Positions 8,681 through 15,300 of a stretch of DNA of 64,000 nt are shown one piece after another. The stretch is from NCBI GenBank assembly GCA_964023275.1, contig OZ029916.1:39557396-39621395 (forward strand). Direction: 5' to 3'. The notes below the pieces were generated by a model that saw only the letters and a list, made by a program, of their open reading frames with translations, did no database searches and had not been told where the DNA came from. The position numbers were made by a program, and so were the translations under genes. Source of the DNA: Norana najaformis (Eukaryota > Annelida > Clitellata > Crassiclitellata > Hormogastridae). Every line of letters starts with the position of its first letter. Position 1 is the first letter of the stretch.

Positions 8681-9330
8681 CATGATACGATACGATGTAA
8701 TGCGATCTAATGCAATACTATGCAATGCGATTATATATAATACCATCTAAGGACATGAATAATGCGATGAGACGTGACGCAGTGCAAGAGGCGTCAAATT
8801 AAGAAGTTGGTCTGTCAAGGACTGACCGTCGTGGGAGCGCAGGTGGTACTTGAGGTCCTGTGCCTCGCTGAAGGTCTTTCCGCAGACGCTGCAGGTGCTC
8901 GGCCGGGCCTTTGAGTGTGTTCGCCGCACGTGACTGTCGTGGGCGGCGTGAGATGCGAACGCCTTCCCACAGAACTTGCACTGAAGAAACAGATCGATGG
9001 ATTGATAGTTGAACTGAAAACACTTCTCTTCCACAAATCCTATCCTGATTCTTCTATTCCCCTTGTCTCACTTTCCGTTTCAATTCCAAACGCCATCCAC
9101 TACAGCCGTCTGACTGTCTGCCTGTCTGACTATAGATCTTGACCTAGAACCGAACCCTTCCTGCCTATCGATTTTGTTTTGACTGAGCGCCTGTGAATTA
9201 ACTTGTTCCCGCAATTTAGCTTTCGTTGTGCGCTGTAGAAATCTCGAGCTCACCATTACGATTACGATTACGATGGTTCGTTGGTTGGTAGATTGAGTGA
9301 TTGCTTGCTTGATTGATTAATTTATTTGCT
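8681..9330 (-). repeat. Left arm of intragenic inverted repeat (PRDM14 exon 9 and flanks)
   Basis: About 650 bases whose reverse complement matches 12552-13194 with roughly ten substitutions and one 4-base gap. The arm covers the whole last PRDM14 exon, its splice acceptor, about 65 bases past the stop codon, and an upstream LINE 3' end. Identity ends near 8681 on the 3' side (after the shared CGTATCGTATCAT) and near 9330 on the intron side. Confidence 0.95.
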
Positions 9331-12300: not shown

Positions 12301-15300
12301 AAGCTGTTGTCGTCGTTTGTCTTGATTTCGCTCGTGTTGACGAGTTTTCCGAGGAAGGGACCGAACTTCGTTCCCTTAGGAATCGGTCCATCTTTACAGA
12401 AGATGCCGCAGTGCACTGTGCCAGCAAACTTCGTCTGAAATAACTCCAAACCTACGACGAACGACAGCGACGACTTTCAGTCATCATGATGATGACGAAA
12501 ACAGTTATTGATGACGACCCAGGTGGTGAAAACATGATGATAATGACGATAACGAATAAATTAATCAATCGAGCAATCACTCAATCTACCAACCAACGAA
12601 CCATCGTAATCGTAATCGTAATGGTAAGCTCGAGATTTCTACAGCGCACAACGAAAGCTAAATTGCGGGAACAAGCTAATTCACAGGCGCTCAGTCAAAA
12701 CAAAATCGATAGGCAGGAAGGGTTCGGTTCTAGGTCAAGATCTATAGTCAGACAGGCAGACAGTCAGACGGCTGTAGTGGATGGTGTTTGGAATTGAAAC
12801 GGAAAGTGAGACAAGGGGAATCGAAGAATCAGGATAGGATTTGTGGAAGAGAAGTGTTTTCAGTTCAACTATCAATCCATCGATCTGTTTCTTCAGTGCA
12901 AGTTCTGTGGGAAGGCGTTTGCATCTCACGCCGCCCACGACAGTCACGTGCGGCGAACGCACTCGAAGGCCCGGCCGAGCACCTGCAGCGTCTGCGGAAA
13001 GACCTTCAGCGAGGCACAGGACCTCAAGTACCACCTGCGCTCCCACGACGGTCAGTCCTTGACAGACCAACTTCTTAATTTGACGCCTCTTGCACTGCGT
13101 CACGTCTCATCGTATTATTCATGTCCTTAGATGGTTTTATACATAATCGCATTGCATAGTATTGCATTAGATCGCATTACATCGTATCGTATCATATGAT
13201 ACATATGATGATGATGACGATGACTGATCGCGACAATAAACGATGATGTTAATGACAATAGTGACGATGACAATGACGATAACAAACGATGAAGAACAAA
13301 CGCTGATGATAAGGATGACGACGACGACGATGATGATAGCAATGATAGTGATAATGCTAATAATTACAACGATGACTAAGGTGATGATGGTGATGAAGAT
13401 GGCGATGATAGTAATGGTGATGATGATGACGATGACTGATCGCGACAACAAACAGAAAAGGTGACGGCATGACGATGATGACGACGATAGCGATACAAGT
13501 GGTGCCGATAGTAAAGAATGTAAAGTAAGGTACTAAAAAGACTTTGGCTTACCTGGCGGCAATTCTATTGTTGTTGGATCGGGCCTTGAAGCTCCGACCG
13601 TCTTTGCAACGGCAGAACAGCCCGACAGAATCCGATCCATACCTGTAACCCAAAGACACATAGCGCCTTCAAAAGGTTCACAAACGGCGCTACATAAAGC
13701 ATCCAGATGCTTACATTTATATATAGCTACGTTACAAAGTCTTAAATAGAACACAAGCATGGTTGGTTGGATTTCGTAATTGCAATCTGAAATTTTATTA
13801 ATTATAATCCGAAATTTTTATAGCGCCTGTTCAATAGAAATATACAAGGGGCGTTACGGACCTGCCGCACAAAAACAAGATCGAACCGAATGGTTTTCAA
13901 GCTCTTACGAAAAGAGGCAAAGAAAGGTCAGTTGGTTCATGTTGTATAGGCTGCCTCTTAGATAAGATTAGATTAGACTGCCTTTTAGATTAGATTAGAT
14001 TATACTGCCTTTTAGATTAGATTAGATTAGACTAGACTACTATAGATTTGACTAGACTTGATTAGTTTAGATTAGATTAGACTATAATAGATTAGACTGC
14101 CTTTTAGATTAGATTAGACTGCCTTTTAGATTAGATTAAATTAGACTGCCTTTTAGATTAGATTAGACTGCCTTTTAGATTAGATTAAATTAGACTTGAC
14201 TATATTAGATTAGATTAGGCTGCCTATAAGAGTATATTAGACTATAGACTTGATTAGATCAGAATAGACAAACGGAGTGAGACAGACAGACATACGGACA
14301 GACAGACCGTCGGAGAAATAGTACAGTATGCAGACAGAAAATAGGCATGCAAATAGACTATTGAAAAACCAGAGAATGAGACAGTCAGAATGAGACTGGC
14401 AGACATGCAGACGCACCGTACGTGAGTTCACCGATGCGTAGCCCAGACAGAGAATGTCCCATCATCTGATCATCCGTGCGATTCTTCGCGTATCCATAGA
14501 GCGCCATGTCGACGTCTTCATGCGTGAAGAGAAACCCTACGAAAGGGTGGCAGGCGGGAAAGGGGTTCGATCGAGCGTCATGCATCACTGACCCGGTCGG
14601 CTGCTGATGCTGAGAGGACGGCGCGGGTGGTGCTGGCAACGGACGGTGATGATGTGGAGCAGATGGAGAGGGGTAGGGAGGAATTCGACCCCCGGTCAGT
14701 GGTACAAGAGCTGTGTGGATGTTACGAGCGTTAGGGTGAGTCTGGCCTGTCATCAGGTTGTAGGCGAGAAATGTCTCGTGAAATCTATCAATCAATCAAT
14801 CAATCAATCAGTCAATCGTTAAGCTTATAAATAGAAAGTATGAGAATAATTATTGAGTTAGCAGTCACGGATTTTAAGCGATGTACTTTACTCAGCCAAG
14901 AAGGAAAAACATTAAGCACGCCAAATAAATAAATAAATAAATACAGTAAGTAAGTAAATATATATTCCTACGTAATTCAGTGTAAGTAATCCTAAATCAA
15001 TAGTTCTATATATATATATATTTGCATGTATGTAATGCATTGCATATATATACATTCGTATATATTTGTATGTATGTATTTGTATATCTACCCGCGCATG
15101 AAGTGATGTACGTTGGTTCTGGTTGGGTGGTGAAGTTGTGCAACCGCCGTTGCAACGCTTCCCTGCGTCATCCCAAGCTGTTGTTGTTGTTGCTGCTGCT
15201 GCTGTTGTTGAGTTGGACTGAGCATGATGGCGGCGTGGGGTACATAATCCAATCCCTGCTGCCCCGCGGCATGTACTACCCCTCGCGCAGTACCATGCGC

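Follow-up and report, generated by a model that had tools for sequence, protein, structure and literature searches.

An inverted and probably recent partial duplication of the PRDM14 end within intron 3 of the gene in the annelid Norana najaformis

The window analysed here is a stretch of 64,000 nucleotides of contig OZ029916.1 from Norana najaformis (assembly GCA_964023275.1, positions 39,557,396 to 39,621,395 of the forward strand), and its own coordinates are used throughout. Its minus strand encodes a protein whose PR domain has PRDM14 as its best match among solved structures (5ecj_A, E value 1.7e-47, residues 1-125), followed by PRDM9 (1.1e-27) and PRDM12 (1.5e-24). In overall score, ZNF568 and similar finger proteins outranked PRDM14 in the structure search, through the fingers, and Pfam reported PRDM2_PR (3.6e-43) together with C2H2 fingers. 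Visual inspection of the translated exons showed six finger-like motifs, the first of which is atypical; PRDM14 has six C-terminal C2H2-type fingers. Based on PR-domain similarity and finger count, the gene is identified as PRDM14. The exons, with boundaries derived by hand from splice sites, and the inverted arms that lie among them are as follows.

13553-13642, minus strand: exon 3, from splice sites
12435-13552, minus strand: intron 3, 1118 bp, of which the copy makes up 644 bp (58%), from splice sites
12291-12434, minus strand: exon 4, from splice sites by hand
11576-11843, minus strand: exon 5, from splice sites by hand
11089-11218, minus strand: exon 6, from splice sites by hand
10521-10647, minus strand: exon 7, from splice sites by hand
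9558-9668, minus strand: exon 8, from splice sites by hand
8747-8980, minus strand: coding part of exon 9, 234 nt including the stop, with the last two C2H2 fingers
8679-9326, minus strand: arm A, the original PRDM14 end (coding part of exon 9, part of intron 8 and 68 nt past the stop), from the alignment and splice sites
9327-12554, minus strand: spacer between the arms, containing exons 4-8 (PR domain and fingers 1-4)
12555-13198, plus strand: arm B, the inverted copy within intron 3, antisense to PRDM14, from the alignment and genome search
12897-13130, plus strand: copy of the exon 9 coding part, reading frame open, with three silent differences and one H-to-Y difference

Elsewhere in the window are a 115-bp unit in two tandem copies at 99% (35275-35508), a doublecortin-domain sequence (44072-44863, plus strand) and fragments of a gene for an acyl-CoA dehydrogenase (57745-58092 and 61562-61861, minus strand; ACDH-11 C-terminal model), for which the middle-domain match is under the curated cut-off.

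Self-comparison of the 5-20 kb region gave an ungapped inverted pair, 8679-9322 and 12555-13198, of 644 nt at 98% with 3232 nt between the arms. In the gapped alignment the arms reach 8673-9326 and 12555-13206, and 639 of the 656 columns are identical (97.4%). Both agree with the first-pass annotation, which had described inverted arms of about 645 bp and about 98% identity at these positions inside PRDM14. The approximately ten substitutions and one 4-base gap that it had counted are borne out by the exact alignment, which contains 11 substitutions (nine transitions and two transversions; 1.7%) and a copy that is 4 nt short relative to the original arm, placed by the aligner as two 2-nt gaps that are equivalent to a single 4-base gap. 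Two 1-nt gaps are also present at the outer end of the arms. Chance cannot be the source of 644 nt at 98%.

The acceptor, the two C2H2 fingers and the stop are intact in both versions of exon 9, as the same annotation had reported for the copy. The silent codon differences between the original and the copy are TTC/TTT, ACA/ACG and TCA/TCG, and the single replacement, CAT/TAT (H/Y), is near the C-terminus. The open frame was set aside as a sign that the copy functions, since four codon changes are too few and some of them probably occurred in the constrained original. Beyond the exon 9 stop, copying reached just 68 nt, and the first AATAAA past the original stop, at 8542, is outside arm A. There is also an AATAAA downstream of the copy, at 13235, which may be coincidental.

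The homology of the arms stops sharply at both ends. It did not exceed that of shuffled sequence in the 300 bp past the outer ends (score of 16.0 compared with 14.8 ± 3.3 for 200 shuffles) or in the 300 bp past the inner ends (12.0 compared with 14.9 ± 2.9, 200 shuffles). The ends of arm A overlap tandem repeats found by TRF (8685-8743 and 9291-9482); at arm B, the flanks of which are GAT-rich by eye, TRF listed no array directly adjoining either end. Switching and slippage are expected in low-complexity and tandem-repeat DNA. A direct repeat, matching at 18 of 20 positions, is found beside the copy.

12534-12553, no strand assigned: left half of the 18/20 direct repeat
13205-13224, no strand assigned: right half of the 18/20 direct repeat

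Its score of 16 was matched in 4 of 2240 pairings (0.18%) of 30-nt with 34-nt pieces drawn from the neighbourhood, a control in which the pairs overlap and are non-independent, and which includes shifts of the observed pair while excluding the pair itself. Intron 3 contains similar motifs again at 13273 and 13422. The direct repeat is suggestive only: it is either a target duplication or merely GAT-rich sequence.

A search of the whole arm against the animal's own genome (608 Mb, 17 contigs) gave two full matches among at least 41; the others, at least 39, are partial and confined to arm positions 330-596. This search scored the best 40 of its 5129 first-look candidates, such that the repeat numbers are lower bounds. 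With the exon segment alone, two full matches and one 58-nt match at 84%, on contig C14, were found in the 608-Mb assembly among the matches listed, the last being the last exon of a PRDM14-like paralog. At the protein level the two exon 9 versions scored 1.2e-47 and 4.4e-47, followed, among the matches listed (at least 174, mostly other zinc fingers; best 150 of 4132 candidates scored), by one at 6.3e-16. The arrangement is a local inverted partial duplication, with the copy in the opposite orientation, partial in extent and with no third full copy among the matches listed.

A repeat finder (16-nt seeds, at least 150 nt) detected no second inverted pair in the 64-kb window. With gapped blastn, the window yielded one further, weaker pair of inverted sequences (38962-39201 and 39472-39718), 249 bp long and 80% identical. 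The base rate was taken from 20 stretches of 10 kb from contigs C1 and C3 only, one of which holds 572 Ns. Three of the 20 contained an inverted pair 100 bp or longer (83-88%). In none of the 20, a small sample from these two contigs, did an inverted pair reach 95%, which gives no sign that events of this kind are common in the genome; direct tandems in close proximity were frequent in the sampled stretches.

The partial genomic matches belong to a LINE-like 3' end with a (TTACGA)n tail, which is abundant, with at least 39 partial matches genome-wide. A C-terminal motif in the reading frame of the repeat is presumably LINE-like, hence the likeness to a LINE 3' end. The repeat is present in each arm.

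9011-9275, plus strand: 3' end of the dispersed LINE-like repeat with its (TTACGA)n tail, in intron 8, limits approximate
12602-12866, minus strand: corresponding LINE-like fragment inside arm B, from the arm alignment, approximate

In arm A the homology covers approximately 9011-9276, beginning some 30 bp short of the acceptor of exon 9 and finishing in the (TTACGA)n tail. An alignment was made with 26 of the 39 listed partial genomic matches. Of the departures from the majority sequence of the 26 copies, over 258 columns, 16 are common to both arms, three are private to arm A (9092, 9201 and 9251) and one is private to arm B (9055). This pattern indicates that the repeat was inserted, the segment then duplicated, and both arms subsequently changed independently. 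The same order holds equally if the arms are two alleles.

The genome search with the PR domain gave 11 matches; beside the window gene these include matches on contigs C8 (70% identity), C5 (64%) and C14 (56%), with the others at 47% and below. By similarity there are four PRDM14-like genes, located in the window (8747-15390) and at C8:5219845, C5:22084769 and C14:4260021; they may reflect an expansion in the lineage. Four Prdm14 paralogs are described for Nematostella in the available part of PMC10415408, and the PRDMs of a clam are treated in PMC10451705, as far as its available text goes. The exon order of the paralogs is the same as that of the window gene as far as covered (exons 4-9 on C14, 5-9 on C5 and only 5-6 on C8, where the stretch ends). 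Each paralog has one last-exon match among the matches listed, that of C8 comprising 24 residues at 88%. The first C14 and C5 stretches each contain a single last exon and gave no match to themselves in inverted orientation; the C8 stretch has a self-inverted match of 46 bp at 85%. In the approximately 2.8 kb upstream of exon 4 on C14 and C5, where no exon 3 was recognised and intron 3 may be covered only partly, neither strand gave a match to the last exon at E values up to 1. One inverted match of 50 bp at 82% links these upstream sequences to a downstream part other than the last exon. The inverted arrangement thus appears to be absent from the paralogs as covered, and they are too old to date the duplication.

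Both arms are real in the assembly. Several properties of the assembly bear on whether they are also in the animal. Both copies are within a chromosome-scale assembly and the 64-kb window contains no Ns; the 251,925 genome bases examined include 572 Ns, in one run at the edge of a single stretch, which could be either a gap or withheld sequence. At 4241-4922 the window has a TCCTC array of 682 bp, several frames of which are open and which includes a perfect run of 265 bp. A pentanucleotide array of this length is hard to assemble without long reads, and its intact state, together with the lack of Ns, suggests a long-read assembly. The first-pass annotation had reasoned that a foldback artefact should be identical, so that the substitutions argue for a real duplication. 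A real duplication is indeed favoured by the chromosome-scale assembly, the lack of Ns, the assembled array and the mutation of both arms; as an exclusion of artefact the substitutions are weaker than claimed, since a misplaced second haplotype could likewise differ by 1-2%, a level that is possible in an outbred animal. The copy is probably present in the animal.

The best explanation, and one that we consider probable, is a real, recent, DNA-level local inverted partial duplication of the PRDM14 end into intron 3, which is probably inert. Approximately 645 bp of the gene end would have been copied, in inverted orientation, into the GAT-rich part of intron 3, across a distance of some 3.2 kb. 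Template switching during replication, or templated repair of a break, is the most likely mechanism. Being intronic and antisense, the copy would probably be spliced out with no effect, and PRDM14 would work from the original exon 9. The alternative that the exon 9 segment of the second haplotype was misplaced, inverted, into GAT-rich, hard-to-assemble sequence of intron 3 is unlikely. The 1.7% substitutions are compatible with allelic difference in an outbred animal, and the arms end in or beside low-complexity sequence, as expected of a misplaced short contig; against this, the window lacks Ns, the joins are seamless on both sides, and long reads were probably used given that the 682-bp array was assembled. 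One would expect a foldback artefact to continue, whereas the copy is an island 3.2 kb off. That the likeness of the arms has instead been maintained in an older inverted repeat by gene conversion, as the first-pass annotation had allowed, is very improbable. Identity is high and conversion is possible between inverted arms 3.2 kb apart, but the twelve arm differences are evenly distributed (KS p = 0.64) and no older diverged homology is seen outside the arms, so that recency alone accounts for the likeness and conversion is not needed. The examined stretches of two paralogs have no inverted last exon, though these are too diverged for dating. One recent event appears to fit better than an old repeat homogenised by conversion.

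The LINE-like sequence raises the question of a retrocopy, in which an antisense RNA with the LINE 3' tail would have been copied by a LINE enzyme for insertion into intron 3. A LINE-like 3' end is present in each arm and the 18/20 direct repeat resembles a target site duplication, but a copy made in this way should end at the tail of the element. The homology ends by 9276 in all 26 of the other aligned genomic copies, while the arms extend a further 50 bp, as far as 9326, with no tail visible at the join; the overrun makes a LINE-mediated copy unlikely. The direct repeat itself has two mismatches in 20 (10%), compared with 1.7% in the arms, and related motifs are found at 13273 and 13422. A retrocopy was rejected on the 3' end and is very hard to credit. 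It is also quite unlikely that the arms are a functional repeat, which pair in the pre-mRNA to hide exon 9 and loop out exons 4-8, with skipping, circular RNA or RNA editing regulating PRDM14. The duplex computed for the arms, which enclose these five exons, is very stable (-1275 kcal/mol), and in C. elegans, according to the available part of PMC8330042, back-splicing and skipping are promoted when reverse complementary matches lie on either side of exons. Recency, however, already accounts for the retention of the sequence, and no such arrangement was found in the covered stretches of two paralogs. Whether the arms pair would hinge on the timing of intron 3 splicing, before or after the transcription of exon 9. 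For the arms to act as a device, by pairing as an exon 9 switch or to form a circle of exons 4-8, or by recombination that flips exons 4-8, is a decidedly slim prospect.

A recent inverted partial duplication would be ordinary in kind and a product of ordinary genome turnover. Local gene duplicates that are young, partial and inverted are already well established in C. elegans and human, as far as the available text of PMC2728529 and PMC4546093 goes, and the PRDM14 copy resembles them in being local, inverted, partial and of low divergence; it differs in that it is located in the parent gene's own intron and comprises a single terminal exon. As in insertions of the MMBIR/FoSTeS template-switch type, in the accessible parts of PMC2621351 and PMC7954356, nearby sequence is inverted with ends in or near low-complexity DNA, but the copy is longer than the short-range events to which the title of PMC7954356 refers. 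The arms also resemble the intronic inverted repeats that promote circRNA (PMC8330042, available part), as they are complementary and flank exons 4-8, but one of them contains a coding exon. A limited open-access literature search found nothing naming this PRDM14 inverted arrangement.

If the arms recombine, the flipped exons 4-8 would still face an intact exon 9 with its acceptor on their own strand, because each arm carries both, but the link between exons 3 and 4 would be broken and exons 1-3 lost. If the duplication is real, it would be a clean, recent, inverted partial duplication within the parent gene, timed by an older LINE-like insertion common to both arms. It could perturb the splicing of a developmental regulator, and would provide a natural test of the effect of a 640-bp intramolecular duplex on the use of a terminal exon.
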